From an uncultured Bacteroidales bacterium (GTDB lineage Bacteria > Bacteroidota > Bacteroidia > Bacteroidales > Muribaculaceae), in NCBI GenBank assembly GCA_902784675.1, contig CACZVR010000011.1, forward strand, positions 1 to 39,791: a stretch of DNA of 39,791 nucleotides, read 5' to 3'. The position numbers and the translations under genes are program-made. Shown in pieces: positions 94-37,200 of this stretch. Numbering within the stretch: the stretch's first letter is position 1; each line of letters starts with the position of its first letter. The notes beneath the pieces were generated by a model. It was not told where the DNA came from. It saw nothing but the letters and a program-made list of their open reading frames with translations, and made no database searches.

Positions 94-216
94 GGTAATC
101 AAATTTTATTTTAGTTGTTAATAATGAGGGCCGTGACAAGTCACGGCACGGGGGACCGGGCGGGCGTGGGGCTGCGAGGCAGAGCCTCGCAATACCCCGA
201 CGGAACGGCCGTGTGG

Positions 217-224
217 CAAAGGTA
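217..224 (-). promoter_or_regulatory. Candidate -7 box for the partial leftward gene
   Basis: The complement reads TACCTTTG, a perfect TAnnTTTG Bacteroidetes -7 element. No -33 TTTG is seen at the usual 19-21 nt spacing, so this is a weaker call than the two-box promoters elsewhere in the window. Confidence 0.4.
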
Positions 225-340
225 ATGGACGCAAAGAGTGTTGTCCATGTCAAAAAGTTTTTTTTTGAGATGTGCAATCGTTTGCGTTGTTTTTTTGAGG
301 ATGAGGTGGTGACATTATTAATCATGTGGGTGGGAATGAG

Positions 341-348
341 TAATTTTG
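341..348 (+). promoter_or_regulatory. Candidate -7 box for the amylase gene
   Basis: TAATTTTG matches TAnnTTTG about 90 nt before the amylase start. No clear -33 TTTG at proper spacing. The implied leader contains the hairpin at 366-382. Confidence 0.35.
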
Positions 349-435
349 GGACAGCAAAAGAACCTCAGGGCCTGGTGCCCTGCACCCATCGGAATAACCA
401 AATCATTCAAACCATAACTTTAAGAACTGCAGATT

Positions 436-3400
436 ATGAGAAAGACGTTTACATTATTATTGTCGCTTGTGGTGTCGTTGCTGACGCTGCAAGCGGGCGC
501 CCAGATGTATATCGTGGGTGATGGGCCGTTTGGTGGCTGGAACCCGGCCGGTGGCGTGAGAATGGATATCAACGGCACCGCAGACGGGACGTACAAATTG
601 ACGACGACCATCAGCGGCGACGTGTATTTTGTGTTTGCCGACGGGCTGGCCGCATCGGATGATGATTGGGCCACGTTCAACAGCCAGTATCGTTATGGTC
701 CTGCCAATGGCGACCAGCCGGTTCCTGTAGATGGTACCTGGACGAGCACGAGCAAGGCCGGTGACCATGGCGCCTATACCTTCACGGGCGATGGCTCGCA
801 GTATGAGTTCACGTTCGACACCATCAACAAGCGTTTCAAGATCAGCACTGGTGGCGGAACTCCCGTCGTTCCTTTCACGGGCGAAGTTTACATGCTTGGA
901 GAGGTGGAAGGCCACAGCTGGGCTCCCAATGTGGGCGTGCCGATGAGTTCTACCGACGGCAACACGTTCACCGCCACGGTGACCTTTAACGGCGAACACA
1001 GCGAGGAAGACGCCGACGTGAGCTATTTCTCGTTCACGACCAAGCTGGGTGCTGACGGAGAGGACTGGGCTAGCATCCATGATTATCGTCTCTCGCCCAT
1101 TGCTGACGAGGGTACGGATTTCTGGGTGACCTCGTCGATGCTGGGTCATCCCATCCAACTGAATGAGATGGGTGTGAACGTGGATGTGGCTTTCCGCATT
1201 CCCGCAGGCACCTATACCGTCACTGTTGACGTGAGCGGTCGCACATGTGTCATCACGCGCCAGTCGGGCGGCGGTCCCGCTGCCGGCAAGGGTTGGCCCG
1301 CGATGTATGGCGGCGTGATGTTGCAGGGTTTCTACTGGGACAGCTACAGGGCCACACGCTGGAACACGCTGACCGAGAATGCTCAGGACTTGTGCCAATA
1401 CTTTGATGTGGTGTGGGTTCCCAACTCGGGCAGTGTTGACGCTAACGGCATGGCCGAGAGCATGGGTTACATGCCCGTGTATTGGCTGAAGCACAACACC
1501 TGTTTCGGCACCGAGTCGCAGCTGCGCGACATGATTTCGACCTTCCATGCACACAACACCAGCGTGCTCATGGACATGGTCATCAACCACAAGAGCGGCA
1601 AGACCGGCTGGGTGGATCTGGCCAATGAGACCGTTACAGGTCCAGTTACCGGCGAGACCTACAGCATGACGTGGTCGCTTGCCGACATCTGCCGTACCGA
1701 CGAGTGCACCGGCGCAGGCTATAATGCCACCGGCGCTGCCGACGAGGGCGAGGACTTTGACGGTAGCCGTGACCTGGACCACACCAGCGCCAACGTGCAG
1801 CAGAACGTGCGCACCTATCAGCAATACCTGATGAAGGAGCTGGGCTATGACGGTTTCCGCTATGACATGTGCAAGGGTTATTCGGGCTACTATGTGGGCT
1901 TGTATAATCAGGCCTCGGAGCCCACATTCTCGGTGGGTGAGTATTGGGACGGCAATGCCGAGACCCTGCGCTGGTGGCTGAACCAGACCAAGCAGGACGA
2001 TCGCATCCAGACGGCTGTGTTCGACTTTGCGTTGAAGTATCCGATGCAGAGCGCCTTCAGCAGCGGCAACTGGAGTGCCTTGAACGACAAGGGCTTGGCG
2101 GGTGATCCCGACTATCAGCGTTACTCGGTGACCTTTGTCGACAACCACGACACGGGCCAAAGCTCAAACTATGACTGCCTGAAGACCAACATCATGCCCG
2201 CCAACGCCTTCATCCTGACGATGCCCGGCACCCCGTGCGTCTTCTACAAGCACTATCTCGTTTATACCGACGAAATCAACAACTGCATCAAGGCTCGTCG
2301 CGCTGCCGGTGTCCACAACCAGAGTGCCATTCTCTCGCAACGCGAAGAGAACGGCGGTTACATCCTGGAGACCCAAGGCACACGCGGCAACATGTACCTG
2401 CAGTTGGGTGGTGCCACCGCCAACGGCTGCCCCTACGGCTACGCGCCGGTGCAGACGGGTGACGGCTACGCGCTGTACATCACCTACGGTATCGATTGGC
2501 AGCATGTGGGCAAGGACGGCAGCATCCTGGGTTATCCTGTGGTGAGCAAAGAGGCTGGCAACTATGTGGGCAACGTGAGCCTCACAGTCGCTCCCAGCAA
2601 GAGCGGCACGACGCTTGTGTATACCACCGACGGCAGCGAGCCCACTGTGACCAGCGCAACCATCAGCGCCACGACCCCGATGACCTTTACCGAGAACACC
2701 ACCCTGAAGGTGGGCGTGCTGAACGGTGACCAAGTCGAGAACGTGGAGAGCTATGTGTACACCATCACCGATGCCGCCACCAGTGGCATCAACGTGTATG
2801 TGAGGTCCTCGATGGCCAATGCTTACATCTGGGCTTGGACCAGCGAGGGCAGTGTGACGGGCAACAGCTGGCCTGGCAAGAAAATCAGCAGCCTGGACAA
2901 GGTTACTGTGAACGACATCGAGTGGTATTGCCTGCATGTGGACGCCGATGAGCTGTCGCTCATCTTCAACAACGGTGATGGCGGCTTCGAGAATCAGACC
3001 TCGACCATCAACCTGACGCGCGACGCCTTCTTCGTTTATCCTAACGAAGACTTGGTGACCTACTTGTACAAGGCCGCCGACACCTATGTCGACGTGACCG
3101 AGAAGTATGCCGGTGCCGGTGCAGCAAGCTATGAGACCGTCTATGTGCTGGGTAACGCCGTTGCGACCACCTGGTCGCCCAGCAACGGTTACCAGATGAC
3201 GACCACCAATGGCGAGAAGTATACCGCCACCATCAACTTTGTGGATCCCTATGGCGGCTACAGCTACTTCAGCTTCTCGAAGGCACTGGGCACGACGTGG
3301 GAAGAGATTGCTGGCGACCGCATGGGCGCGACGAGCAACAACTTCCCCATCACCGATGCCAACATGGGCACTAACCTGACTGTGATTGCGGGAGAGAACT

Positions 3401-3678
3401 CCTTCAAGATCGCTACGGGCAAGTACAACCTGACGTTGTATCTGTCACAGGGCATCCTTGTGGTGGAGAAGTGGACCGAACCGCAGCCCGTGGTGATTGG
3501 CGATATTGAGGGTGACAATGATGTCGACATGGATGACCTGTCGGCCATGATCAACTATCTGCTCACAAGCAACGCAACGGGAATCAATCTCGTGAATGCC
3601 GATTGTGATCCGAACGGCATTGTGAACATGGATGACTTGTCGGTTCTCATCAATTACCTGTTGACGGGCGCGTGGTGA
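436..3678 (+). CDS. Secreted multidomain GH13 alpha-amylase with dockerin-like C-terminus
   Basis: Extracellular endo-acting starch hydrolase, 1080 aa. Residues 1-22 are a signal peptide ending AGA-Q. Two beta-sandwich modules resembling SusE/SusF starch-binding folds follow (about 23-130 and 147-275). The GH13 barrel spans about 285-690 with its motifs intact: DMVINH (380-385), DGFRYDMCK with nucleophile D477, acid/base E502 in SVGEYW, and NHD with D572. After it come a chitobiase-C-like segment (YTTDGSEPT), a CBM26-like module (VYVRSSMANAYIWAW), a third SusF-like module (about 895-1013), and two dockerin-like EF-hand repeats (1023-1077, DxDxDxxxMDDL). Family and catalytic assignment are firm. 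Module names outside GH13 are inferred from residue pattern. Three other proteins in the window share the dockerin-like tail, while no cohesin is present. Confidence 0.95.
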   Translation: MRKTFTLLLSLVVSLLTLQAGAQMYIVGDGPFGGWNPAGGVRMDINGTADGTYKLTTTISGDVYFVFADGLAASDDDWATFNSQYRYGPANGDQPVPVDGTWTSTSKAGDHGAYTFTGDGSQYEFTFDTINKRFKISTGGGTPVVPFTGEVYMLGEVEGHSWAPNVGVPMSSTDGNTFTATVTFNGEHSEEDADVSYFSFTTKLGADGEDWASIHDYRLSPIADEGTDFWVTSSMLGHPIQLNEMGVNVDVAFRIPAGTYTVTVDVSGRTCVITRQSGGGPAAGKGWPAMYGGVMLQGFYWDSYRATRWNTLTENAQDLCQYFDVVWVPNSGSVDANGMAESMGYMPVYWLKHNTCFGTESQLRDMISTFHAHNTSVLMDMVINHKSGKTGWVDLANETVTGPVTGETYSMTWSLADICRTDECTGAGYNATGAADEGEDFDGSRDLDHTSANVQQNVRTYQQYLMKELGYDGFRYDMCKGYSGYYVGLYNQASEPTFSVGEYWDGNAETLRWWLNQTKQDDRIQTAVFDFALKYPMQSAFSSGNWSALNDKGLAGDPDYQRYSVTFVDNHDTGQSSNYDCLKTNIMPANAFILTMPGTPCVFYKHYLVYTDEINNCIKARRAAGVHNQSAILSQREENGGYILETQGTRGNMYLQLGGATANGCPYGYAPVQTGDGYALYITYGIDWQHVGKDGSILGYPVVSKEAGNYVGNVSLTVAPSKSGTTLVYTTDGSEPTVTSATISATTPMTFTENTTLKVGVLNGDQVENVESYVYTITDAATSGINVYVRSSMANAYIWAWTSEGSVTGNSWPGKKISSLDKVTVNDIEWYCLHVDADELSLIFNNGDGGFENQTSTINLTRDAFFVYPNEDLVTYLYKAADTYVDVTEKYAGAGAASYETVYVLGNAVATTWSPSNGYQMTTTNGEKYTATINFVDPYGGYSYFSFSKALGTTWEEIAGDRMGATSNNFPITDANMGTNLTVIAGENSFKIATGKYNLTLYLSQGILVVEKWTEPQPVVIGDIEGDNDVDMDDLSAMINYLLTSNATGINLVNADCDPNGIVNMDDLSVLINYLLTGAW

Positions 3679-3715
3679 TTGCGGGCAACAGTCCGAAACA
3701 ATGATTAAAGTGCGG

Positions 3716-3741
3716 TTTCCTGGCCATCGACGGTCAGGAAA
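3716..3741 (+). terminator. Possible terminator after the amylase gene
   Basis: TTTCCTGGCC and GGTCAGGAAA form a 10-bp stem with one G-U pair and a 6-nt loop. The following sequence TCGTCTTTAT is T-rich but has no clean T-run, so termination strength is uncertain. It starts 38 nt after the amylase stop and precedes the ruvC promoter. Confidence 0.4.
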
Positions 3742-3798
3742 TCGTCTTTATCGGGGCCGTTTTTGTGCCTGCAGATGTGTGGAGTGACGAAAAAGTGC

Positions 3799-3806
3799 TA
3801 CCTTTG
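3799..3806 (+). promoter_or_regulatory. -7 box of ruvC
   Basis: TACCTTTG is a perfect TAnnTTTG element lying only 11 nt before the ATG at 3818. Transcription would begin about 5-7 nt downstream, leaving a leader of only a few bases. No well-spaced -33 TTTG is seen. Confidence 0.55.
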
Positions 3807-3817
3807 TCCCGAAAGAG

Positions 3818-4387
3818 ATGCAGGACGAAAAGTTTGACAATATCATCATCGGCATCGACCCGGGTACCAATGTCATGGGTTATGCGCTGCTGGGTGTGAA
3901 CGGCAAGACGCCGCGGCTCATCGTCATGGGCGTGCTGCGGCTCAATCGCATGGAAGACCACTACATGAGGCTGCGGCACATCTATGAGCGCGTGAGCGGC
4001 GTCATCGCCGAATATCTGCCCGACGAGATGGCCATCGAGGCGCCATTCTACGGCAAAAATGTGCAGTCGATGCTCAAGCTGGGACGCGCCCAGGGTGTGG
4101 CGATGGTTGCCGCGCTGAACCGCGAGATTCCCATCACCGAGTATGAGCCGCGCAAGATCAAGATGGCGATCACGGGCAACGGTGCTGCCAGTAAGGAGCA
4201 GGTGGCGATGATGCTGCAGCGCACGTTGGGCATCGACGAGTCGCAGATGCCCGACCTGCTCGACGCGACCGACGCGCTGGCTGCCGCCCTGTGCCATTTT
4301 TATGAGCGCAACAAACCGTTCACGGGCAAGGGCACGAAGTCATGGAAATCGTTCATCGCACAGCACCCCGACCGCGTGAAGAAATAA
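3818..4387 (+). CDS. ruvC: Holliday junction resolvase RuvC
   Basis: Endonuclease that resolves Holliday junctions during recombinational repair, acting as a dimer with RuvAB. The 189-aa length is normal for the family. The acidic catalytic residues are visible: D14 in IGIDPGTN, E74 in [10 protein letters not shown], and D149/D152 in [11 protein letters not shown]. The Lys/Arg-rich tail fits DNA binding. ruvC stands alone here between the amylase and an AT-rich island, with no ruvA or ruvB beside it. The -7 box sits so close to the ATG that the mRNA may be nearly leaderless. Confidence 0.95.
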
Positions 4388-4821
4388 CGCGAAACTACGA
4401 ATTACACGAATTAAACGGATTATTGGCTGCCGCGGTCGATTTTTTGTCGGCGGATTGTGCGGATTATAGGGATTTTGGGCATCTGCGTTCGATTTCAGAC
4501 AACCGGGACAACATGACGACAACTTTAACTACTTTGTTTTTTGCATCCGCGTTCGGTGCTGACAATAACCATATTCTTGCCATGTTTCTATCTGTTGAAG
4601 TATAGAGATATTCCACAAAGAGGTAGATTTCGGTGTCCGTTGGTACGAATTGAAGTAATTCTTTTGCGTATATCAAGATTATTAACGAAATTTGCGTAAA
4701 AATTGAACATGCCATGTATTTGTTTGATATGTTTATTTCATTAACTTATTGTAATTCAACAGTATATATTGCTTTTTGAAACCTTTTTTATTGACTTTTT
4801 TTAGCTTTCAGGTAACTTGAA
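4388..4821. repeat. AT-rich intergenic region with interspersed repeat copies
   Basis: This 434-nt gap begins with degenerate copies of the interspersed family built on ACGAATTACACGAATTAAAC, GGATTGTGCGGATT and GGGCATCTGCGTTC (4392-4495), with a second core GCATCCGCGTTC at 4544-4555. From about 4560 to 4821 it is very AT-rich. I see no convincing gene and no exact TAnnTTTG promoter for the acyltransferase that follows. Confidence 0.5.
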
Positions 4822-5835
4822 ATGACTTTAACAAGAGAACAGTGTCTGAATATTAAAGGAATCGGAATGATTCTTATCATGATTCACAATTTTGTAGATC
4901 ATATTCAAAGTGTAGAGTGTAATGAGATGTATTATTCTCAAGCAGCAACTGATTTCTTTTTGGAACATATATTTAGTTCATCATCTATATGGTACTTTTT
5001 TGCTTTTGCTGGATGGATAGGTGTTTCGTTGTTCTTTTTTATGAGCGGTTATAGTTTGAGTAAGAAGTATGGAAAACAAAAGATAGAGTATTTGCCTTAT
5101 ATTAAAAGACATGCGGTAAAGCTATGGAAATTATTATTACCAGTTTATTTTCTATATGTTTTAGTCTCTCATTTTTGTTTCGGACAAGAATACCAAATCA
5201 AAGGAATTATAGCTGTGGCATCTTTAAATGGAAATTTTTTCGCTGATTCATTTTTTGAACCTGGCGTTTATTGGTTTTTTGGTGCAATTTTTCAGTTCTA
5301 TATTCTTTTTTTATTCATACGGCATTTTGAAACACGATGGCTGGTTAATATATTGTTATTGTTTGTGTTAATGTATTACTACGTCCTGTATTTTGACAAT
5401 GAGTATACGAGTTTTTATTTTAGGTATACTTTTCGTGGGTGGATAGTCCCATTTATTATGGGCATGATATATGCAAGAAATGACCTCTCATTGTCTAAGA
5501 AACAGTATTCGGTGTTGTTCTTGATTTCTTCAGTAGCACTTGCATTCTGTTTAGTGGCAAAACCTTTGGCTCCCTTTGTCGATGTCATGATAATTGTTTC
5601 TGTCATTAGTTTAGTGCAATTGAAATCATATAGATTTATTTCATTCATAGGTCTCATCTCTGCAAGTATATTTGTAATACATCCATTTGTCAGGATGATC
5701 TTTCTGAATACAATTTGTTCGAATGAAAGTTATGGCAGTGCCCTTGGTATGGAAACGTTATTATATTTCATAATAACTATCCTTTTGAGTTGGTGCCACT
5801 TTCGTGCTTTAAGGTCTTTTGACAGGGTCCCGTGA
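4822..5835 (+). CDS. Acyltransferase family 3 membrane protein
   Basis: Integral membrane O-acyltransferase of the OafA/YrhL type (Acyl_transf_3), which moves acetyl or similar groups onto surface polysaccharides or small molecules. At 337 aa it is near the minimal size for the fold, with about ten hydrophobic segments. The N-terminal Lys-x9-His motif (K12 to H22, in MIHNF) stands in the usual Arg/Lys...His position. FFFMSGYSLSKKY (about 74-86) and a late FVIHPFVRM segment are also family-like. Codon use is strongly AT-rich, unlike ruvC before it and the TonB receptor after it, suggesting horizontal acquisition. The acceptor cannot be told, since no polysaccharide gene cluster adjoins. Confidence 0.85.
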   Translation: MTLTREQCLNIKGIGMILIMIHNFVDHIQSVECNEMYYSQAATDFFLEHIFSSSSIWYFFAFAGWIGVSLFFFMSGYSLSKKYGKQKIEYLPYIKRHAVKLWKLLLPVYFLYVLVSHFCFGQEYQIKGIIAVASLNGNFFADSFFEPGVYWFFGAIFQFYILFLFIRHFETRWLVNILLLFVLMYYYVLYFDNEYTSFYFRYTFRGWIVPFIMGMIYARNDLSLSKKQYSVLFLISSVALAFCLVAKPLAPFVDVMIIVSVISLVQLKSYRFISFIGLISASIFVIHPFVRMIFLNTICSNESYGSALGMETLLYFIITILLSWCHFRALRSFDRVP

Positions 5836-9545: not shown

Positions 9546-9568
9546 TTCCTAAAGACTAAGACAATATT

Positions 9569-11359: not shown

Positions 11360-11391
11360 TTTGCTCATTTTGATTATTATTACTATCTTTG
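11360..11391 (+). promoter_or_regulatory. Promoter of the Y1 transposase gene
   Basis: TTTG (11360-11363), 20 nt, then TATCTTTG (11384-11391). The match is complete. It shows that the true start is ATG 11410, since upstream alternative starts fall inside the -7 box. Confidence 0.75.
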
Positions 11392-11409
11392 TGCAAAATA
11401 TCTGGCATC

Positions 11410-11853
11410 ATGAGCAAAACCGTCTCATTGCATCACATAGTCATCAACACAAAAAACCGGAACATGACCATCAACGCCGAACATGCTGAGGACATGTATC
11501 GTTTCATCACGAGCATTGTGAAGCGTAATGGCTGTTTCTTGTGCCGTATAGGCGGTATCGAGAATCATATTCACATGCTGATTGATTTGGCGCCGACGGT
11601 GGCTTTGTCTCATCTGGTTTGGGACATCAAGCGCTCGAGCAGTGACTGGGCCAAGAGGAGTGGACTATTTCCTGAATTTGTGGGATGGGGCAAGGAGTAT
11701 GGCGCTTTTTCGGTATCTGAATCGCATCGTGATGCGGTGATACAGTATATTATAGGTCAGCCTGAACATCACCAGCAGGTGGGTTTTGATGACGAGTACC
11801 GGAGATTGGCCGAACGTAATGGGGTGGAGTGGAACTACCATATGCTCACATGA
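11410..11853 (+). CDS. IS200/IS605-type Y1 transposase (REP-associated type)
   Basis: Single-strand DNA transposase, 147 aa from ATG 11410, normal length for TnpA of IS200. The HUH metal motif H53-I-H55 is present (in GGIENHIHML), and the nucleophile is probably Y113 in DAVIQYIIGQPEHH. No tnpB lies nearby. The gene is embedded in direct and inverted repeats rich in 3-nt-loop hairpins, the kind of subterminal structure these enzymes recognise, and this placement resembles RAYT genes, which serve chromosomal REP elements. The frame is intact and has its own promoter, so it may be active. Whether it moves itself or only the palindromes cannot be told from one copy. Confidence 0.88.
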   Translation: MSKTVSLHHIVINTKNRNMTINAEHAEDMYRFITSIVKRNGCFLCRIGGIENHIHMLIDLAPTVALSHLVWDIKRSSSDWAKRSGLFPEFVGWGKEYGAFSVSESHRDAVIQYIIGQPEHHQQVGFDDEYRRLAERNGVEWNYHMLT

Positions 11854-14338: not shown

Positions 14339-14532
14339 ATCGCCTGCCTCCTTGAAAAACTACTCATTTCGCGAATTTAACTAATTGGCCTTCGCGTTCT
14401 TTTTCTCACGCTAAGACGCAAAGGGTATTTGTGGCATCCGCGTTTGAGTTTTTAAACACGGATTATGCGGATTTCGCGGATTACGCTGATTTGGCATCCG
14501 CGTTCTTTTTTAAAATGCTTGGGTAGGGGTAC
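14339..14532. repeat. Interspersed GCATCCGCG repeat copies
   Basis: The gap between the ATP-grasp stop and the SRP RNA end contains CGCGAATTTAACTAATT, GGCCTTCGCGTTC, CTCACGCTAAGACGCAAAG, GGCATCCGCGTTTG, GGATTATGCGGATTTCGC and a final GGCATCCGCGTTCTTTTTT. The CTCACGCTAAGACGCAAAG / GGCATCCGC pair recurs at 18443-18487. No gene is seen. Confidence 0.55.
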
Positions 14533-17111: not shown

Positions 17112-18344
17112 ATGAAGAAATTATCATTACTTTTCTTGAGTGTTGCCATTGCCCTGGGTGCATCGGCAACGGCGAAGTTCCACGGTAACGCCTATCGTCC
17201 GCTGGGCAAGGCGACAACTGCCACCACAACGAAGGCTCCCTCGCGTGTTGACATCATCACCGAGCAGCCCGAGGGCACATTAGTGAAGTACACCCGTGGC
17301 GGTGAGTTTATCACGGTGAGCCTGTATGGCTACAGTGCCGAAGATCAGTTGGGTAGAGTGAAGGTGGTCTATGCTGATGACGGCAAGACTGTTTACATCA
17401 AGGATCCGTTGTGCTATGCCGAGGGCGTGGGCGCTTGGGTGTATGGTGAATTGAGTGATGACGGCTCGACCATCACCGTGCCGCTGGGACAGTATGTTTC
17501 CTATAACGAGGATTATGGTTATGGCTTGATTTTGTCATGGGGTTCGACCATGGCCATGGACTTGGGCGAAGGCTTCTATTGGGTAGAGTATTTTGCTGAC
17601 GAGACGGTGACCGAAGTGACCTATGCCGTTGATGCTGAAAACGGCACCATCACACTGCTGGGTGCCTCGGGCGATGCCAGCGCCGATGAGCCCTACTGTT
17701 ATGAGGCCACCGGTCTTGCTGGCGTGTGGGACGATGACGGCTCGATGGCCACCATCGAGTGGGGTTCCACCTGGGCTGAGTTGGGTGATATAGCGCCTGC
17801 CGTTCCCGCCAATCCCGACGTGCTTGAGTTCTTTGACTGTGGAGACGACAGCGGTTACACACGTTTTGACTTCAACATCAACCTGGATGACGTTGACGGC
17901 AAGCCGATGGATACCGACTGCTTGACCTACAGTATCTTTATGGATAACGACCAGCTGTACACCTTTGACTACAACACCTATGGTGCACAGAACGGCTTTG
18001 ACACCGACATGACTGAGATTCCCTACGGTTACAGTGGTGCGGACTTCTACCTGCGTCGCGTTTATTTCTACGCTACCAACATGGGTGACGAGCCGTTGTT
18101 CACCTGGCGCATCGGTATCCAGCTGAACTACACGATTAACGGTGTGACCAACAAGTCGGACATTGTTTACCTTGAGGTTTATCCGCAGCCCACGGCAGTC
18201 AACGAACTTGACGGTGCCAAGAGCATCACTGGCGTGCGCTACTTCAATGTTGCAGGCCAGGAGATGGCACAGCCCAACGGTTTGACCATCGAGGTGACGA
18301 CCTATAGCGACGGCACAACCAGCGCTGCGAAAGTGGTTTTTTAG
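17112..18344 (+). CDS. Secreted protein with T9SS-like C-terminal signal
   Basis: 410-aa exported protein of unknown function. The signal peptide MKKLSLLFLSVAIALGASA is followed by a beta-rich module (GTLVKYTRGG...KTVYIKDPL...ITVPLGQYV) that recurs twice in the protein at 34576-36888, so the two are distant relatives. The last 40 residues (ITGVRYFNVAGQEMAQPNG...VTTYSDGTTSAAKVVF) resemble short Por/T9SS type A C-terminal sorting domains of Prevotella-like bacteria, suggesting export and surface attachment by that route. ATG 17112 (MKKLS) is preferred to 17106 (MLMKK). The TAG stop is the first part of a heptamer repeat array. Confidence 0.75.
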   Translation: MKKLSLLFLSVAIALGASATAKFHGNAYRPLGKATTATTTKAPSRVDIITEQPEGTLVKYTRGGEFITVSLYGYSAEDQLGRVKVVYADDGKTVYIKDPLCYAEGVGAWVYGELSDDGSTITVPLGQYVSYNEDYGYGLILSWGSTMAMDLGEGFYWVEYFADETVTEVTYAVDAENGTITLLGASGDASADEPYCYEATGLAGVWDDDGSMATIEWGSTWAELGDIAPAVPANPDVLEFFDCGDDSGYTRFDFNINLDDVDGKPMDTDCLTYSIFMDNDQLYTFDYNTYGAQNGFDTDMTEIPYGYSGADFYLRRVYFYATNMGDEPLFTWRIGIQLNYTINGVTNKSDIVYLEVYPQPTAVNELDGAKSITGVRYFNVAGQEMAQPNGLTIEVTTYSDGTTSAAKVVF

Positions 18345-18424
18345 GCTTTAGGCATTAGGCTTTAGGTATTAGGTATTAGGCTTTAGGTATTAGGCTTTAG
18401 GTTTTAGGCTTTAGGCTTTAGGGG
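18341..18424 (+). repeat. TTAGGnn heptamer array 1 (12 units)
   Basis: Twelve consecutive 7-bp units TTAGGCT, TTAGGCA, TTAGGTA, TTAGGTT and TTAGGGG, with no break in phase. The gene's TAG stop (18342-18344) lies within the first unit. Only the last two positions vary. Confidence 0.95.
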
Positions 18425-18442
18425 TATCCACGTACCTTTTGC

Positions 18443-18488
18443 CTCACGCTAAGGCGCTAAGACGCAAAGATTATTTGTGGCATCCGCA
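18443..18488. repeat. Interspersed repeat copy (CTCACGCTAAG / GGCATCCGC)
   Basis: CTCACGCTAAGGCGCTAAGACGC...TTTGTGGCATCCGCATT is a second copy of the arrangement at 14406-14448. The GGCATCCGC end abuts the insertion-sequence relic at 18494. Confidence 0.6.
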
Positions 18489-18493
18489 TTCCG

Positions 18494-18541
18494 TGAACTG
18501 CACTCCAAAAGTTTTGTGTCTAACTTTTGGGGTGCAGTTCA
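18494..18541. mobile_element. 48-bp relic made of two insertion-sequence ends
   Basis: TGAACTGCACTCCAAAAGTT (18494-18513) and AACTTTTGGGGTGCAGTTCA (18522-18541) are 20-bp terminal inverted repeats with one mismatch and only 8 nt between. They are flanked by the direct repeat TTCCG (18489-18493 and 18542-18546), as expected for a target-site duplication. The repeat extends on one side to AGACACAA, a terminus I associate with IS3-family elements in this phylum. No transposase remains. As RNA it would also form a long hairpin. Confidence 0.65.
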
Positions 18542-18645
18542 TTCCGTGGTGACGGGGTGCGGATGTTTTTCTGATTAAGGAAATGAGGCGGGTGTTGCCC
18601 ATCGGAGGTGTTTGCCACATTGTTGCTTGTTGATGGACGGTTGGG

Positions 18646-18665
18646 GCCGCGACGGGAGTCGCGGC
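18646..18665 (+). repeat. Interspersed palindrome copy P2
   Basis: GCCGCGAC-GGGA-GTCGCGGC followed by ACAGGGAACCGGGCTGG. It is the stem variant in which a T/A pair is replaced by C/G on both sides. A short heptamer remnant (TTAGGTA) follows at 18707. Confidence 0.85.
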
Positions 18666-18747
18666 ACAGGGAACCGGGCTGGCGCGGTTTGGTGAGGTAT
18701 AAGGCTTTAGGTATTGGGAGCGTTTTTTCTTGGATAATCAGAATTCA

Positions 18748-20199: not shown

Positions 20200-20234
20200 T
20201 AGCGATTCATTAGCTGTCGTAATCTCATGTGGGG

Positions 20235-20253
20235 GCCGCGACAGAGTCGCGGC
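20235..20253 (+). repeat. Interspersed palindrome copy P3
   Basis: GCCGCGAC-AGA-GTCGCGGC with a 3-nt loop, followed by ACAGGGAACTGGACTG. It lies 35 nt after the stop of the preceding dockerin protein gene. Confidence 0.85.
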
Positions 20254-20298
20254 ACAGGGAACTGGACTGAGATTTAGTGAGGGAATCGTTATAAAATG

Positions 20299-29317: not shown

Positions 29318-29348
29318 CAAAGATATATCAACTTTCTGAAACGGCAAA
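29318..29348 (-). promoter_or_regulatory. Promoter of the glpABCTQ-porin cluster
   Basis: On the complement, TTTG (29345-29348), 19 nt, TATCTTTG (29318-29325), with a leader of about 40 nt. A TTTCGTT motif (29352-29358) lies just upstream of the -33 box. Confidence 0.78.
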
Positions 29349-29351
29349 ATA

Positions 29352-29536: not shown

Positions 29537-29569
29537 TTGATGAATTTTGAAAGATTTTTGTGTTTTTTC

Positions 29570-29600
29570 TTGGTGGGTAATCTTCTTTTCTCTATTTTTG
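29570..29600 (+). promoter_or_regulatory. Promoter of the DeoR-family regulator gene
   Basis: TTG (29570-29572), 20 nt, TATTTTTG (29593-29600), giving a leader of about 24 nt to ATG 29629. Confidence 0.65.
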
Positions 29601-29628
29601 CCGCATCATTTGAAAATTGACCGCTGTC

Positions 29629-30393: not shown

Positions 30394-30688
30394 GTTTTAA
30401 ACTTCAAACCTTTAGCTCGGTGAAGCCAATTACGCGAATTAAACTGATTGGCATCCGCGTTCTTTTTGTTGAAAACAACTGGAACAACTAAGACAATTGG
30501 GCTGCCGCGTTTTGATTTTAAACGGCGAATTTAGCGGATTAAACGAATGGCATCCGCCTTCACACTTCGTTCTTGTTGTGAGGGGGGGCAATAGTTTTGT
30601 GCAAACCTATCTGGTTTGTAGCTGTTGTTTTTTTTGTTGCTGCTTTCGGGATAGAGTAATAATTGTTGTAATTGTTGTCTTCCTTTTT
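30394..30688. repeat. Convergent gap with interspersed repeat copies
   Basis: This 295-nt region holds two copies of the repeat family: TTAGCTCGGTGAAGCCAATT with ACGCGAATTAAACTGATTGG and CATCCGCGTTCTTTTT (30411-30470), and GGATTAAACGAATGGCATCC (30536-30555). The stretch 30600-30690 is T-rich. No clear intrinsic terminator or gene is visible. Confidence 0.5.
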
Positions 30689-31696: not shown

Positions 31697-31739
31697 GTGA
31701 TATTGTTATAAAACTACGAACCATTAGCTCGGCGAAGCC

Positions 31740-31799
31740 AATTACGCGAATCAAACGAATTGTATCTTGATGGATGATGCTTGTTTGATTCGCGTAATT
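31740..31799. repeat. 17-bp perfect inverted repeat between apbE and an OMP gene
   Basis: AATTACGCGAATCAAAC (31740-31756) and its exact reverse complement (31783-31799) flank a 26-nt spacer. The left arm belongs to the interspersed GCGAATTAAACG family, so this may be two copies in opposite orientation. It could act as a weak terminator for the OMP gene pair upstream. Confidence 0.7.
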
Positions 31800-31823
31800 T
31801 GTGCTGTTGTGGCAGGGTGGGGA

Positions 31824-32453
31824 TCACTTGAGGAACCAGGTGAGGTTGACGTACCAGGTGCGGTTCTTGGCGACGTTATCGTCGAGCAGCTTGGTGTGCA
31901 GTGTCTGACCTACCGAGAAGTTGAAGCCGGCGCGCAGCTGCCAGCGTTCGAACAGTTCAAATCCAGCGCCCATGTCGAGGTAGACGTTCACCGGGGGATA
32001 GGTGTTGAGTTCGCTGTGGTTGCCGTGCAACAGGAACGAGAACTGCGGTCCTGCGTACACCAGCGGCATGAAGGTCGTTTCCATGCCGCCCAGACGGCGG
32101 TACTTGAACTTGAGGTGCAGGGGCACGTCAAGGTAGTGCATCGACACTGTCTCGTTGCCGGCGCCCACTGATGACCAGACGGTGCGGCTGCCATAGTCCA
32201 CCTTGCCCTGTTTGAGCGTGTAGAGCGCTGCGCCCTCGACGCCAAAGCCAAGGCTGCCGAAGTTCATCTCGCCTGTCACACCCAGCTGCGGTCCCCACGC
32301 CCTGGTGGAGGGCACGATATCTTGCTGCTTGAAGTGCAACTCGTTGTAGTTGGCTCCGGCTGTGATGCCCCAGCGCGAAGTGGTCTGGGCCATTGCGGCA
32401 GTGGCTGCAAGGAGCGTCGCCGCGATCAGTAAAGTGATTCTTCTCATTGTCAT
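31824..32453 (-). CDS. Outer membrane beta-barrel protein (PorT-like), copy 2
   Basis: 209 aa from ATG 32453. Signal peptide MTMRRITLLIAATLLAATAAMA, then an eight-stranded-type barrel pattern (RWGITAGANYNELHF, PLHLKFKYRR, AGPQFSFLLHG, WQLRAGFNFSVG, WYVNLTWFLK) with LDVPLHLKFKYR characteristic of the OMP_b-brl/PorT-like family. It is a paralog of the gene 78 nt upstream in the same direction; both share the (Y/H)x(D/V)(I/V)P(V/L)xxKxK and GP(S/Q)FS(V/F)L segments. An interspersed palindrome (P4) lies in the gap between them. The function is unknown. Confidence 0.8.
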   Translation of the reverse strand: MTMRRITLLIAATLLAATAAMAQTTSRWGITAGANYNELHFKQQDIVPSTRAWGPQLGVTGEMNFGSLGFGVEGAALYTLKQGKVDYGSRTVWSSVGAGNETVSMHYLDVPLHLKFKYRRLGGMETTFMPLVYAGPQFSFLLHGNHSELNTYPPVNVYLDMGAGFELFERWQLRAGFNFSVGQTLHTKLLDDNVAKNRTWYVNLTWFLK

Positions 32454-32487
32454 GTTATCGTTTTTTTCTTTTTTCTTGTTGCATGGG

Positions 32488-32507
32488 GCCGTGACGGGAG
32501 TCACGGC
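32488..32507 (+). repeat. Interspersed palindrome copy P4
   Basis: GCCGTGACGGGAGTCACGGC, the consensus form, followed by ACAGGTGGACCGGGCTGG. It sits between two leftward OMP genes, so a transcript covering both would carry this hairpin in its intergenic part. Confidence 0.88.
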
Positions 32508-32531
32508 ACAGGTGGACCGGGCTGGCGGTTG

Positions 32532-33122
32532 CTAGAAGAGCCAGGCGGCGCTGATTGTCCAGTAGCTGTCCTTGCCGTTCACCTTGTCGCCCGTGTACTC
32601 GCTGTCGATGTACTTGAGGGCGCGGGAGATGCCCAGACCGTAAGTCCCAGTGAGTCGCAGGTGCCTGAACAGGTCGGCACCGAGGCCGACGTCCCATGAG
32701 AGGTAGGTCTTGCGGTTCTTCAAGTTGCTGGGTGCATTCTCGCTGAACAGCACCGAAAAACTGGGTCCCGTGAACACCAACGGCTCAAAGAACTTGTTGA
32801 TGGTGGGTAGCGAAAGTTTGTAGCGTGCATACACCGGAATGTCGATGTAGTGGCGCTTGAAAACGAGATTGTTGTCGGTGAGGCGGTTGTTGCGGTGGGT
32901 GTACATTGCTGATACCTCCACGCCCAGGCCGATGACCGGGATGTTCATGTCGAGCAGCAGGCCCCCGGTGTAGCCCACGCGGTTGTCGCTGTTGATGATG
33001 TTGCGGTCGAAGCGCAACTCGCCCAATGTGATGCCTCCGCGGAGACCCACACGCACCTGTGCGGCAGCAGGCAGCGCCAACAGCACAATCATTGTCAATA
33101 TCATCTTTCTCATTGTCGTCAT
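32532..33122 (-). CDS. Outer membrane beta-barrel protein (PorT-like), copy 1
   Basis: 196-aa exported small barrel. Signal peptide MTTMRKMILTMIVLLALPAAA-Q, then VRVGLRGGITLGEL, HYIDIPVYARYKLSL, FTGPSFSVLFSE and a terminal SYWTISAAWLF. The length and the strand pattern match the same PorT-like family as its downstream paralog, with limited identity between the two. It has a candidate promoter (TAGCTTTG, 33138-33145 complement). A second in-frame ATG (33113, MRKM) is also possible. Confidence 0.8.
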   Translation of the reverse strand: MTTMRKMILTMIVLLALPAAAQVRVGLRGGITLGELRFDRNIINSDNRVGYTGGLLLDMNIPVIGLGVEVSAMYTHRNNRLTDNNLVFKRHYIDIPVYARYKLSLPTINKFFEPLVFTGPSFSVLFSENAPSNLKNRKTYLSWDVGLGADLFRHLRLTGTYGLGISRALKYIDSEYTGDKVNGKDSYWTISAAWLF

Positions 33123-33137
33123 AGTTTAACAAAGGGT

Positions 33138-33170
33138 CAAAGCTACAAACAATTTTCCATTCTCGCGCAA
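33138..33170 (-). promoter_or_regulatory. Candidate promoter of the OMP gene pair
   Basis: On the complement, TTG (33168-33170), 22 nt, TAGCTTTG (33138-33145). The spacing is slightly long. Confidence 0.45.
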
Positions 33171-33203
33171 TAATCGTTAAGGAATAACACTAATTTAACA
33201 TGG

Positions 33204-33280
33204 TTAGGCATTAGGCTTTAGGTTTTAGGCATTAGGCATTATGTGTTAGGTTTTAGGCATTAGGTGTTAGGCTTTAGTGG
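33204..33280 (+). repeat. TTAGGnn heptamer array 2 (11 units)
   Basis: Eleven 7-bp units in unbroken phase; nine are TTAGGnn (CA, CT, TT, TG), and two are degenerate (TTATGTG, TTAGTGG). It lies between the OMP pair promoter and the tRNA terminator. Confidence 0.93.
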
Positions 33281-33282
33281 AG

Positions 33283-33319
33283 AGAAAAGAAAAATCCCGC
33301 ACCGGAAACCGATGCGGGA
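33283..33319 (-). terminator. Intrinsic terminator of tRNA-Val
   Basis: On the complement, TCCCGCA and TGCGGGA pair (33295-33301, 33313-33319) with inner CGG/CCG, followed by TTTTTCTTTTC. Confidence 0.85.
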
Positions 33320-33328
33320 CCCTTCGTG

Positions 33329-33403
33329 TGGGCAGTGAGGGATTCGAACCCCCGACCCTCTGCTTGTAAGGCAGATGCTCTGAACCAACTGCGCTAACTG
33401 CCC
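33329..33403 (-). tRNA. tRNA-Val (anticodon TAC)
   Basis: The complement folds as a complete cloverleaf: acceptor GGGCAGT/ACTGCCC with discriminator A, D-arm AGCGCAGTTGGTTCAGAGC, anticodon stem TCTGC/GCAGA with loop CTTACAA (anticodon TAC, reading GUA), and T-arm with GGTTCGAATCC. No CCA is encoded, so CCA is added after transcription. It has its own two-box promoter and terminator. No integrated element is seen at its 3' end. Confidence 0.96.
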
Positions 33404-33424
33404 GAGTTGCCGTCAAAAGCGATG

Positions 33425-33455
33425 CAAAGGTACTGCTATTTTTGAAACCACCAAA
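33425..33455 (-). promoter_or_regulatory. Promoter of tRNA-Val
   Basis: On the complement, TTTG (33452-33455), 19 nt, TACCTTTG (33425-33432), about 20 nt before the tRNA. Confidence 0.78.
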
Positions 33456-33547
33456 GAAAAATGAGATTTTTTTTCAAAAAAAGTGATTTTTTCTCTTCAA
33501 GAGGCGGTTTTTAGCGGAGAAAAGGGTAATTTTACTCGCTGTTTCCT

Positions 33548-33700
33548 GGTTGGACTGGCTGGAATGACTGGACGCGGCTGGAGTGGCTGGATGGGCTGGA
33601 GTGACTGGACTGGCTGGACTGCCTGGACGGGCCGTGACAGGAGTCACGGCATAGTGGACCGGGCTGGATTGGCTGGACGGGATGGAGTGGATTGATTGGA
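33548..33700 (+). repeat. GGCTGGAnn nonamer array 1 enclosing palindrome copy P5
   Basis: Nine nonamers of form G(G/A)CTGGAnn occupy 33548-33629, with one extra base at 33575. They run into the palindrome GCCGTGAC-AGGA-GTCACGGC (33631-33650). After its tail GGACCGGGCTGG, further degenerate units (ATTGGCTGGACGGGATGGAG) continue to about 33700. Confidence 0.85.
33631..33650 (+). repeat. Interspersed palindrome copy P5
   Basis: GCCGTGAC-AGGA-GTCACGGC with tail ATAGTGGACCGGGCTGG, embedded in nonamer array 1. Confidence 0.88.
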
Positions 33701-33730
33701 GGAATTGTTGAATTTTAATTTATATATTTC

Positions 33731-34279
33731 ATGGAGATGACTTTTATTTTTCTTGCTGATGGCTTTGAGGAAGTCGAGGCCATGACGAGTATTGACGTGA
33801 TGCGTCGTGCGGGAATGCCCGTGACGACGGTGTCGATTAATCTCACGCGTGAAGTGACTGGTGCGCATGGCGTGACGGTGCTGGCCGACAGCCTGTTTGC
33901 CGACAATGACTATAGTGGTGCTGAGTGGCTGGTACTGCCCGGCGGTATTCCTGGCGCGCCCAACTTGGCTGCTCACGAAGGCTTGCGTGACCTGCTGCTG
34001 TCACAGGACGAGCGCGAGGGACACATCGGCGCGATCTGCGCCTCGCCGGCAGTGGTGCTGGGACCGCTGGGGTTGCTCATGGACCGCAAGGCGGTGTGCT
34101 ACCCGGGACTTGAGGATACAGTCGAGGGCGTGAACTGGCAACAGGGGCCTGTCGCCATCGACGGTCACATCGTCACCGGAAACGGACCTGCAGCGGCTGC
34201 TGCCTTCGCCCTGGCAATGGTGGCCGAGAGCGCTGGTGCCGACAAGGCCAGCGAAGTGGCTGCGGGAATGCTGTTTTAG
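33731..34279 (+). CDS. DJ-1/PfpI family protein (YajL-like)
   Basis: 182-aa cytoplasmic protein of the DJ-1 superfamily, implicated in protein or nucleotide deglycation and oxidative stress defence. Family landmarks are FLADGFEEVEA with E16, LVLPGGIPGAPNLAAH, and the nucleophile elbow AICASPAVVL with C103, then IVTGNGPAAAAAFAL. The length is normal for YajL/DJ-1. ATG 33737 (MTFIFLADG) is a possible alternative start. No clear promoter is visible. The TAG stop coincides with the start of a heptamer array. Confidence 0.92.
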   Translation: MEMTFIFLADGFEEVEAMTSIDVMRRAGMPVTTVSINLTREVTGAHGVTVLADSLFADNDYSGAEWLVLPGGIPGAPNLAAHEGLRDLLLSQDEREGHIGAICASPAVVLGPLGLLMDRKAVCYPGLEDTVEGVNWQQGPVAIDGHIVTGNGPAAAAAFALAMVAESAGADKASEVAAGMLF

Positions 34280-34324
34280 GCATTAGGTATTAGGCTTTAG
34301 GCATTAGGTTTTAGGCTTTAGGGT
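34276..34324 (+). repeat. TTAGGnn heptamer array 3 (7 units)
   Basis: Seven phase-locked units, TTAGGCA, TTAGGTA, TTAGGCT, TTAGGCA, TTAGGTT, TTAGGCT and TTAGGGT. The TAG stop of the DJ-1 gene (34277-34279) is inside the first unit, as in array 1. Confidence 0.94.
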
Positions 34325-34404
34325 CGCCTCTTGTTGGTGTTTTGCTTTTTGTTGGAGGAAGTGGCGTTCTTATATATTATAATGTGAAAAAAACGTCTGA
34401 AAAG

Positions 34405-34435
34405 TTGCAGATGTCAAACAAAAGGTCTAAATTTG
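34405..34435 (+). promoter_or_regulatory. Promoter of the secreted adhesin-like gene
   Basis: TTG (34405-34407), 20 nt, TAAATTTG (34428-34435). The leader is about 135 nt, with a small hairpin TCTTGC-ggcgt-GCAAGA and a long AT-rich end. Confidence 0.68.
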
Positions 34436-34575
34436 TGGCATTAATTTTGGCTTGTGTGCCCTCTTGCGGCGTGCAAGAAGTTGAAAATAAGCCTTATTAA
34501 TGCATTTATTTGAGAAACCAAACATCTTTTTTTATTAACTTTTATATTATTAACTCCTAAATCTTTATTACATTT

Positions 34576-36888
34576 ATGAAGAAGATTTTATTCTTAATGT
34601 TGAGTTTGGCCGTGACCACCAGCGCTTTTGCCGGTGTCAAGGTTAACAGTGTGCAGAAGGTGCTGCCGCAGACCAGCAAGTCTGCGAAGGTGTCTCATGC
34701 TAACGGTATGACTGCTGCTAAAGATGTTCAGACAATGAACATCAATGCTCCCAAGGTTACTCCCAAGCAGCATCAGCTGATGCCTATTGAGGGCATGCGC
34801 GTGTTAGAGGCCAAGACAAACATGACCTTCAATGCTCCCCACAAGGCTGATCCCGCAGGTACTGTAGTGAACTACAAGAGGTCTGCAGGTCAGTTCCTGG
34901 CTCCTAATGAAGGGCTGACGGCTCTGTCATTTGGCCAGCAGGCAGGTACTATCAAAGCTGTCGAGAATGGCAACAAGATTTATTTCAAGAACCTGCTTTA
35001 TGATCCCAATAACTACCTTTTGACCAACTTTGTACAGTATGGCGCTTCGGGTGCAGACTACTGGATTGAGGGTACCAAGAGTGGTAACACCATCACCATC
35101 CAATTGGGTCAGACGATCGTTGATCTTTCGGCTCAAGGTCTGAACGTTGTCCTGAAACGTGGTACTACCCGCTCCGGTTCAAATGGTGTTCAGTTTACTG
35201 TGAACAGTTCTTCTACTGCCACCTTCACCGTTAACGGTGATGTGCTCACGCTGAACAACTCGGCACAGTCGACCACTGGTTATGGCAATGGTCTTGCAGC
35301 TGTTTGGGACGATGACAACACCTGGGTAAACGTAATCAACTATGGCACCCAGCTGACCGCTATCGGCGAAATTCCCGATGCACCCGTAATCTACACCGAT
35401 GCTGACATCGATGCACTGACTGGTGATTTCGTAAGGTATAACCGTACCGGTTACGCATGGAATCGCACTGCTGATAACTACTTGGATATCATGGAGCAGA
35501 CAGGTTATGGCTACATCTTCTACGATGAGGACGGCACCACTGTTTACATGCGCGATCCCGTTTCGGGTTGGAATAACGGTAACTGGGTAAAGGGTACGAA
35601 AAACGGCGACCAGCTGAGCTTCCCCTTGAACCAGTACTTCTACTGGGATGATGAGTTCTTTGGAATTAGGACTACCTATGGTCTCCTTGAGTTGGATACC
35701 ATCACAAACAAACTCACCTATACCATTGATCCTGATAAGACCGATATCACTTACACCATCGAAGGCAATACCATCACGATGGACGATTGCGGCTATGTTG
35801 ACGACGCAATGACCCAGTTCTATGGCTTGGCTGCCTATGTTGACTCGGCTTACATCGATCGTAACTTCTACTGCATGGACTGGTTCACCCAGTACTATAT
35901 GATTCCCGGCACCCCGACCATCGAGAGCGTTCAGCCCGTGACTGCAACTACTGCAACTGTTAACTGGACCGACGCTGATGCCAATACCGACACTTGGAAT
36001 GTGCGCTATCGTGAGTGGGTAGATCCCGCAACTGTTGAGTACTTCTTCGATGACTTCGAGGGTGAAGTCAACTGGACCGGTTGGAATATGGACGGTGATG
36101 ACTACTGGTGGGAGCTTGGAGAAGATGAAGATGGCAACACCATGCTTTCTTCGGCAAGCTACGTGAACAATGTTGGTCCACTTGAGCCCGACAACTGGGT
36201 AATGTCGCCAGAGCTCAAGCTTGACGGTGTTATCAGGTTCAAAGCTTGGGGCCAGGATCCCAAGTATGCTGCCGAGAACATTGCCGTTTATGTCTTCGTT
36301 GGCGACACCGCTACTATCGAGGATCCCGCTACTGCGTTTGTAAAGGTTGGTGATGACATCGTCACCACTGGTGATGTGACCGAGTACACCTTCGTAATTC
36401 CCGAGGAGTATCAGGGTCAGATGGGTTATATCGCAATCCGTCACTACAATGTAACCGATATGTTCCGCGTGAACATCGATGACGTTTATGTTGGAAGTCC
36501 CGATGGTGGTAACCCCTGGATCTATGTAAATGGCGTTCAGGCTATGCAGCTGCTTCTCGAGGGTCTGACTCCTTCGACCACCTATGAGGTACAGGTACAA
36601 GGTACCAACTATGGTGGCGTAGGCGTTTGGAGCGACGCTGTTCAGTTCACTACTCTGGCCGACCAGCCTCAGCCCACTGTTAAGCGTGGTGATGTTGACG
36701 GCAACGGTGACGTGAACATGGACGACTTGACCTTGCTGATCAACTACCTGCTCAATCAGGCTGCCTATATCGATCAAATCAATTTTGATAACGCAGCTAT
36801 CTGCGACTCGCTCGATAGCGATGATGTAGGTATGGACGACTTGACTGCCTTGATTAGCTTCCTGCTGTCTAAGCAATGGGACGATTGA
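34576..36888 (+). CDS. Secreted adhesin-like protein with dockerin-like tail
   Basis: 770-aa exported protein. Signal peptide MKKILFLMLSLAVTTSAFA. Two copies of a beta module (about 93-268 and 283-445; pattern YxR...GxxVYxxDP...G..(I/L)..PLxQY), also present in the protein at 17112-18344. An FN3 domain whose first half (about 446-480, TATVNWTDADANTDTWNVRY) and second half (about 646-694, TTYEVQVQGTNYGGVGVWSD) enclose a cleaved-adhesin/choice-of-anchor-J type domain (about 487-642; FDDFEGEVNWTGWNMDGD, WVMSPELKL, NIDDVYVG). Two dockerin-like repeats close it (705-770). No catalytic motif is apparent. Probably a surface or matrix-attached binding protein. Confidence 0.82.
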   Translation: MKKILFLMLSLAVTTSAFAGVKVNSVQKVLPQTSKSAKVSHANGMTAAKDVQTMNINAPKVTPKQHQLMPIEGMRVLEAKTNMTFNAPHKADPAGTVVNYKRSAGQFLAPNEGLTALSFGQQAGTIKAVENGNKIYFKNLLYDPNNYLLTNFVQYGASGADYWIEGTKSGNTITIQLGQTIVDLSAQGLNVVLKRGTTRSGSNGVQFTVNSSSTATFTVNGDVLTLNNSAQSTTGYGNGLAAVWDDDNTWVNVINYGTQLTAIGEIPDAPVIYTDADIDALTGDFVRYNRTGYAWNRTADNYLDIMEQTGYGYIFYDEDGTTVYMRDPVSGWNNGNWVKGTKNGDQLSFPLNQYFYWDDEFFGIRTTYGLLELDTITNKLTYTIDPDKTDITYTIEGNTITMDDCGYVDDAMTQFYGLAAYVDSAYIDRNFYCMDWFTQYYMIPGTPTIESVQPVTATTATVNWTDADANTDTWNVRYREWVDPATVEYFFDDFEGEVNWTGWNMDGDDYWWELGEDEDGNTMLSSASYVNNVGPLEPDNWVMSPELKLDGVIRFKAWGQDPKYAAENIAVYVFVGDTATIEDPATAFVKVGDDIVTTGDVTEYTFVIPEEYQGQMGYIAIRHYNVTDMFRVNIDDVYVGSPDGGNPWIYVNGVQAMQLLLEGLTPSTTYEVQVQGTNYGGVGVWSDAVQFTTLADQPQPTVKRGDVDGNGDVNMDDLTLLINYLLNQAAYIDQINFDNAAICDSLDSDDVGMDDLTALISFLLSKQWDD

Positions 36889-36927
36889 TTGAATTGTCGG
36901 CGATTCATTCGCTGCAATAACTTGAAT

Positions 36928-36962
36928 AAAAGAGGGATCCGCATGCTGCGGGTCCCTCTTTT
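36928..36962 (+). terminator. Strong intrinsic terminator after the adhesin-like gene
   Basis: A 16-bp stem (36928-36943 with 36947-36962; one G-U pair, loop TGC) with an A-rich 5' side and TTTT 3' side. The symmetrical A/T ends would let it work in both directions. Confidence 0.92.
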
Positions 36963-37019
36963 GCATCTTTAAACAACTGAATTGTCTGATTTTTCTGAGG
37001 GCATCCGCGAGTGTGGATT

Positions 37020-37200
37020 GGCTGGAGTGACTGGATTGGCTGGATTGGCTGGAGTGACTGGATTGGCTGGATTGACTGGATGGGCTGGAGTGACTGGATG
37101 GGCTGGACGGGTCGTGACGGGAGTCACTGCATAGATGGACTGGCTAGCTGGAGTGGCTGGTGTGACGGACTGACTGGGCAGGATGAATTGGCTGGATGGG
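37020..37200 (+). repeat. GGCTGGAnn nonamer array 2 enclosing palindrome copy P6
   Basis: Ten perfect-phase nonamers (37020-37109) alternate GGCTGGAnn and GACTGGAnn, ending GGCTGGACG next to a decayed palindrome. Degenerate units follow it to about 37200. An interspersed core GGCATCCGCG lies just before (37000-37009). This fills most of the gap before the next gene. Confidence 0.9.
37111..37130 (+). repeat. Interspersed palindrome copy P6 (decayed)
   Basis: GTCGTGAC-GGGA-GTCACTGC, with changes that break the outer stem, followed by ATAGATGGACTGGCT. It has the same nonamer junction (CTGGACGGG) as copy P5. Confidence 0.75.

Follow-up and report, generated by a model that had tools for sequence, protein, structure and literature searches.

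Repetitive extragenic palindromic (REP) elements and REPINs are described, in the available portions of three reports (PMC8266576, PMC3116915, PMC3733652), as short intergenic palindromes that carry an unpaired tetranucleotide at one foot, occur in several to many copies, and form inverted pairs around the gene for a REP-associated tyrosine transposase (RAYT) of the HUH/Y1 type. The spread of REP elements is characterized there as poorly understood (PMC8266576). For Bacteroidetes, the excerpted text of Quentin et al. 2018 mentions RAYT-like genes that have, on their flanks, atypical secondary structures with copies elsewhere in the genome (PMC6006769), and that of Di Nocera et al. 2013 mentions CGTC repeats (PMC3733652). 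Insertion sequences of the IS200/IS605 family, such as IS608 and ISDra2, are stated to target the lagging-strand template (PMC6006769). Here we describe a hairpin family from an uncultured Bacteroidales genus. It was recognized in a stretch of DNA, hereafter the window, that comprises the whole 39,791-bp contig C11 of a 2.70 Mb genome assembly (131 contigs, 86% complete).

The copies are most likely (with a probability of roughly 0.8) non-autonomous REP/REPIN-type elements whose spread, in single-stranded form, would depend on a cognate HUH/Y1 RAYT. As in described REP systems, they are short palindromes with an unpaired tetranucleotide at one foot and several to many copies per genome, and are overwhelmingly intergenic (3 of 126 clusters of copies lie inside predicted genes). 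Beside RAYT genes, several of the copies form inverted, REPIN-like pairs. They differ from those systems in their tag, which reads AYRG on the tail strand and CYRT, 5′ of the hairpin, on the other, in the lack of any mixed-orientation cluster among 36 located away from RAYT genes, and in a two-domain RAYT of about 326 amino acids. We refer to them as a REP-type family with an atypical tag (AYRG/CYRT) and a two-domain RAYT. The window carries six copies, all of which belong to the set used to build a covariance model, and the preliminary description of this DNA gave their positions and shared tail strand correctly:

128..165, + strand: P1, hairpin at 130-147 with loop AA, plus tail; covariance model E=1.3e-8
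18644..18683, + strand: P2, hairpin at 18646-18665 with GCCGCGAC stem, plus tail; E=1.4e-9
20233..20271, + strand: P3, hairpin at 20235-20253 with loop AGA, plus tail; E=7.0e-8
32486..32526, + strand: P4, hairpin at 32488-32507, plus tail; E=2.6e-9
33629..33668, + strand: P5, hairpin at 33631-33650, plus tail, with CTGGCTGGA arrays on both sides; E=9.2e-10
37109..37148, + strand: P6, degenerate, hairpin at 37111-37130, adjoining a 9-mer array; E=5.9e-7

The stem arms are 8 bp long and perfectly paired in five of the six copies, the exception being P6, in which one pair is G/T and another is mismatched. Loops comprise 2 nucleotides in P1, 3 in P3, and 4 in the other copies. A pattern with a four-nucleotide loop and an AYAG tail, with three mismatches allowed, yields seven matches at four sites compared to 0.02 expected; the four sites are on the plus strand, and the three other matches come from reading these palindromes on the opposite strand. 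Across the whole genome the stem pattern occurs at eight sites, versus none with a reversed control. When treated as single-stranded DNA, P2 and P4 fold better than all 200 of their respective shuffles on either strand. All six copies are located between genes, as previously claimed, and the only overlap involves P4 and the GTG-started extension of an open reading frame that begins, under the codon model, at 32393. Two contigs of this genome have nearly identical left ends around P1 (G000:C16 1-250, denoted L006, and window 1-230), owing either to duplication or to the assembly having broken at a repeat.

Searches with the covariance model, which was built from nine copies of the same genome, reveal that the family extends well beyond the window. 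At most 150 candidates were scored per genome and stricter filters were applied in a search of 41 genomes of the genus, so all copy numbers are lower bounds. The genome itself has at least 16 copies at E<1e-3 and at least 18 at E<=0.1, including the nine used for model building. Matches at E<=1 are present in 25 of the 41 genomes, this one included, with at least 67 in the most copy-rich. A pattern scan of genome_contigs returned 85 stretches, 80 of them from Bacteroidales-type metagenome-assembled genomes and five from unrelated bacteria; the five have one match each and are probably chance occurrences. A strict stem-plus-tail pattern was uninformative as a measure of distribution, giving a single match in 61 genomes, in the genome of the window.

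The preliminary description observed that P2 and P3 carry C/G on both arms where the other four copies carry T/A, and proposed that this reflects selection on pairing. The difference is indeed present, and the covariation within these six copies alone could stem from a single change. At the level of the family, compensatory change is supported. Stems in relatives include GCCGCGGC/GCCGCGGC, GCCGTGGC/GCCACGGC, GCCGCCAC/GTGGCGGC, GTCGAGGC/GCCTCGAC, and others. In an alignment of 63 distinct copies, which was fitted to the structure and thus favours pairing, and whose rows are related, 97.6% of cells are paired and six of the eight base pairs exhibit changes on both sides. A total of 75 cells are changed on both sides, compared to 22.2 (standard deviation 8.1) in shuffles, and shifting the pairing partner by one to three columns lowers pairing to 19-61%. 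Selection on pairing is therefore supported for the family.

The tail was also reported as conserved, which holds for part of it. Among the same 63 copies, the AYRG adjoining the hairpin is nearly constant at its first and last positions (A in 61 of 63, G in 61 of 63), as is a C farther on (56 of 61), and the rest of the tail varies more than had been described. A search of the window against Rfam at the gathering threshold returned only the Bacteroidales small signal recognition particle RNA and tRNA and no match for the element, which fits the earlier remark that it matches no known element. This SRP RNA, together with related genomes that are Bacteroidales metagenome-assembled genomes (mostly of rumen origin, to judge by their isolate names), places the window in that order. 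Arrays of a CTGGCTGGA-like 9-mer at window positions 33546-33632 and 37014-37107 abut P5 and P6, respectively. The 9-mer unit resembles the tail of the element, and array and tail may be related.

The link to a transposase comes from physical association. Six genomes contain 26 Y1 transposase loci, of which 15 are IS200-like with strong Pfam scores. The element adjoins 4 of the 11 other loci versus 0 of the 15 small IS200-like ones. It is present on both sides of long proteins at G061:C5, G036:C2, and G006:C96 (genome and contig are given for each), and beside a remnant at G061:C3. The long RAYT has a match in 32 of the 41 genus genomes, and we scanned the flanks of the best match in 30 of these, taking the copy in the genome of the window separately and leaving out second copies such as G006:C55 and the partial G008:C210. 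Where the protein is at least about 55% identical to that of G061, the element is located no more than 90 bp from the gene at 12 of 14 loci, 10 of them with copies on both sides. At loci below about 55% identity, it is found at 1 of 16 (E=0.02), a contrast with p=1.7e-5. Elements are carried by 14 of 15 genomes with a RAYT of this clade (one partial) versus 11 of 26 genomes without one. The preliminary description had listed a REP-like sequence of a Y1 transposase among its candidates, and this proposal is supported by association with the RAYT clade rather than by activity.

Other Y1 genes were noted as well. The window has a short IS200-like gene at 11389-11853 on the plus strand (NCBIfam transpos_IS200, 52.9 bits, cut-off 55). 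Short inverted repeats rich in GC lie upstream of it, and it has no AYRG-tagged hairpin element beside it. L191 (G036:C40:34519-37875) is another Y1 protein, of 266 amino acids, with inverted GGGACAAAAGAACCGTCCC-type repeats on its flanks, and it probably represents a separate REP-like or insertion-sequence system.

The element might instead be mainly a functional site, either a hairpin in the 3′ region of RNAs or a site on DNA recognized by a nucleoid or chromosome-organizing protein, and its nearness to RAYT genes would then be incidental. Such a role is consistent with the intergenic locations, the compensatory pairing, the one-way orientation over long contigs, and, in G061 and G036, the concentration of elements within about 100 kb. 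However, the clade contrast at RAYT loci (12 of 14 versus 1 of 16) would not be expected, copy number ranges from 0 to at least 67 among congeners, and a loop of 2-4 nucleotides is awkward for a dimeric protein site. Likewise, no T-run that would indicate a Rho-independent terminator is present on either strand beside the six hairpins, with an A/T-rich flank found only at 17 or more bases from P1 and P4. We consider this alternative highly improbable. An RNA-processing hairpin or nucleoid-protein site, as had been suggested earlier, is superfluous for explaining the data, and a secondary role of this kind is possible.

Proteins of the RAYT clade are about 326 amino acids long and most contain the motif MPDHxH. 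Residues H96 and H98 (HxH), the catalytic Y164 (Y..NP), N168, and P169 are invariant in all 28 aligned members. The Pfam Y1_Tnp and NCBIfam REP_Tyr_transpos models cover only about the first half of the protein. An AlphaFold model (mean predicted local distance difference test score 88.9, with residues 1-3 and 5-20 unreliable) was used for Foldseek searches, which retrieved the ISDra2 and IS608 transposases, ShosA at rank 18, and the RAYT-REP complex 4er8_A at rank 26 (E 3.1e-5, root-mean-square deviation 2.7). A search of solved structures by sequence gave no relevant match to the long RAYT. The model also matched DprA from H. pylori (E 6.6e-4, probability 1.00) and S. pneumoniae (E 5.3e-3), in output that lacks residue ranges. 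We infer that the DprA match falls on the second half, in line with a weak profile alignment of the second domain to DprA by hhalign (probability 7.5%, E 0.0047; control 1.0%). The sequence support for this likeness is only suggestive, and a Pfam search allowing E values up to 10 gave no match to the second half. The predicted protein thus appears to combine an IS608/RAYT-like domain with a second domain resembling DprA. A separate, good DprA is encoded in nine other host genomes searched, with a tenth giving a weak match. Because both halves are matched in only 3 of 80 genomes sampled across the order (that of the window, G095, and G054, the last in two pieces), with the first part alone in seven others, the fusion looks lineage-restricted.

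Subclass 2.6 of TnpA-REP (PMC6006769) is similar in that it comprises Bacteroidetes genes whose flanking atypical structures recur in the genome. As judged from the table in that report, its members have 179 amino acids and the motif NH[LIV]H, whereas the proteins described here have about 326, mostly with MPDHxH, and a conserved second domain. IS200/IS605 transposases share the catalytic fold and, by analogy, might share the recognition of hairpins on single-stranded DNA. However, the full-length clade RAYT occurs once per genome (twice in G006) and not as a multi-copy insertion sequence. As far as our searches of the open-licence PubMed Central literature show, the hairpin family, its AYRG/CYRT tag, and the fused RAYT are new; no relevant paper was found there on fusions of RAYT or HUH transposases with DprA, or on REP in Prevotella.

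By analogy with these systems, the folded element would be bound by the RAYT on one strand with CYRT as a guide, and the enzyme would then cut the element and join it into single-stranded DNA. The DprA-like second domain could perhaps aid in gaining access to single-stranded DNA or keeping hold of it. Local duplication would account for the tandem arrays in relatives. Copies in the species of the window would be old or mobilised in trans, because no intact cognate RAYT was found in its incomplete assembly. The DprA-like domain of the RAYT hints at a way in which REP elements may spread, and the differing tag and two-domain RAYT make this spread testable outside the Proteobacteria models.

Several observations weigh against assigning the family to the REP type with a cognate RAYT. 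The tag is neither GTAG nor CGTC, because of which the family is not filed as classical REP. Three RAYT members score 46.9, 41.4, and 51.9 bits with NCBIfam NF047646 (REP_Tyr_transpos), below the curated cut-off of 80. In the genome of the window, which is 86% complete, no intact cognate RAYT was found. The sole long-RAYT member detected there, L343 (G000:C8:21312-22370), is a paralogue that shares about 50% identity with the G061 protein and is interrupted by one in-frame stop, and no element lies beside it. The clade RAYTs L218 and L223 also have no neighbouring element, one of them in G035, the most copy-rich genome. Moreover, elements occur in 11 of the 26 genomes without a clade RAYT, and in G061 and G036 most clusters are at shared positions, with no recent movement seen.

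Orientation along contigs is mostly uniform. For this analysis, 271 hits at E<=0.1 from 12 genomes were used, of which 14 near RAYT genes were excluded, and the remainder were grouped into 176 clusters at 1 kb. None of the 36 multi-copy clusters is mixed. Neighbouring clusters, not all of which are independent owing to shared ancestry, agree in 52 of 57 pairs, in 38 of 43 separated by more than 3 kb, and in 20 of 25 separated by more than 10 kb. When the close relatives G061 and G036 are left out, the corresponding values are 28 of 29, 24 of 25, and 17 of 18. One-way arrays have a precedent in P. fluorescens SBW25, where the available portion of PMC3116915 reports tandem REP arrays that are forward at one genome place and reverse at another, on opposite sides.

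One explanation for this uniformity is that transcription rather than replication sets orientation, with copies kept or inserted mainly antisense to genes, for instance through a hairpin in the 3′ regions of mRNAs or an exposed coding strand. Gene context was classified for the 126 clusters from ten genomes, leaving aside 16 at contig edges and the three inside genes. In 54 clusters the genes on both sides run opposite to the tail strand ('--'), versus 19 in which both run with it ('++'; p=5e-5). A further 22 clusters are between convergent genes and 12 between divergent genes. The coding bias of the surrounding region is opposite to the element in 78 of 126 clusters. The excess of antisense positions and the coding bias are as this explanation would predict. 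It does not account for the window, where the classified copies (two '++', one '--', one convergent, and one divergent) all point the same way. Nor does it fit neighbour pairs between genes of opposite direction, which agree in 3 of 3 cases, or other mixed-type pairs, including contig-edge and in-gene members, which agree in 39 of 44. One-way orientation holds for the window and extends over long contigs in the 12 genomes, but the earlier statement that it disregards gene direction does not hold generally, given the predominance of antisense positions across the ten genomes. Considering also the collinear comparison described below, we regard control by transcription as rather unlikely.

A second explanation is that orientation is a by-product of strand-asymmetric mutation, whereby a copy whose G-rich tail falls on the C-rich strand decays until it is no longer recognised. 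Of 88 regions, 69 allowed codon-corrected skew to be calculated. The tail strand is the G-rich strand in 44 of these 69 (p=0.029), most strongly in G061, as expected from such decay. Without G061, this agreement falls to 39 of 64 (p=0.1), yet without G061 and G036 the neighbour pairs remain almost fully coherent (28 of 29), which makes a mutational by-product improbable. Raw GC skew (agreement in 11 of 20 regions with 20-kb flanks, and in 51 of 88 regions overall) and intergenic skew (52 of 88 regions) are not supportive of a link between orientation and skew.

We tentatively entertain a third possibility, that a RAYT with a DprA-like domain directs elements to one strand at the replication fork, which would make the repeats a written record of fork direction, and that in the RUG14590/RUG12435 lineage about 16 kb is now replicated opposite to the window species with genes remaining collinear. 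Exposure of single-stranded DNA on one strand of the fork might give the copies of a replichore a common orientation. If the fork does determine orientation, the repeats would reveal present and past replication direction from the contigs of uncultured bacteria.

A comparison was made with G061:C3 111.5-145 kb, with which the window is collinear in reverse; 20 of the 23 predicted window genes have a usable orthologue. Elements are opposite relative to shared genes at two places in G061, namely upstream of the orthologue of the first window gene, where a single orthologous flank supports the comparison, and in the P2/P3 interval, where the window has an extra gene. The shared genes themselves are not turned, which argues against transcription as the determinant. 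Within G061:C3 128.6-145.1 kb, skew at four-fold sites is shifted towards G on the G061 plus strand in 8 of 8 orthologous genes (+0.09 to +0.58). On the other side of the switch, among 12 genes, the shift is up in 4 and down in 8. Because skew and element strand switch on collinear genes, orientation and a strand-asymmetric mutational process appear to change together while the genes stay put, and replication direction is the simplest common cause. The hairpin of P4 is missing from the orthologous interval in both G061 and G036, a difference in presence that favours the REP/REPIN-type reading of the family. The link to replication direction put forward in the preliminary description is accordingly plausible, drawing on this one good collinear comparison, but the skew test across regions lends it weak support.

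G061:C3 80-160 kb (L062-L066) and G036:C21 (L068-L071) have strong local strand skew, including at four-fold sites, with a sign change near 120-130 kb, whereas skew is weak over the remainder of the contig. These regions hold most of the elements in a concentrated form, and their strand switches at the same place. The switch in G061:C3 may be either origin-like or terminus-like. dnaA and parS-like pairs are located on other contigs; the parS-like pairs are weak evidence, given that a control pattern is as frequent in count. Gene direction at this switch fits a terminus and the usual skew sign fits an origin, and a scan with a dif consensus gave nothing convincing. An opposite switch in G061:C8 and G036:C4 represents one orthologous event, and codon-corrected skew of G061:C8 1-100 kb has no switch.

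Additional repeats are present in the window. TTAGGC-type heptamer arrays are located at 18340-18422, 33203-33277, and 34275-34322, all with the same strand on plus. Intergenic interspersed motifs such as GGCATCCGCGTTC and ACGAATTAAACGGATT were noted by eye at about 4400-4500, 14390-14500, 18440-18500, and 30410-30570.

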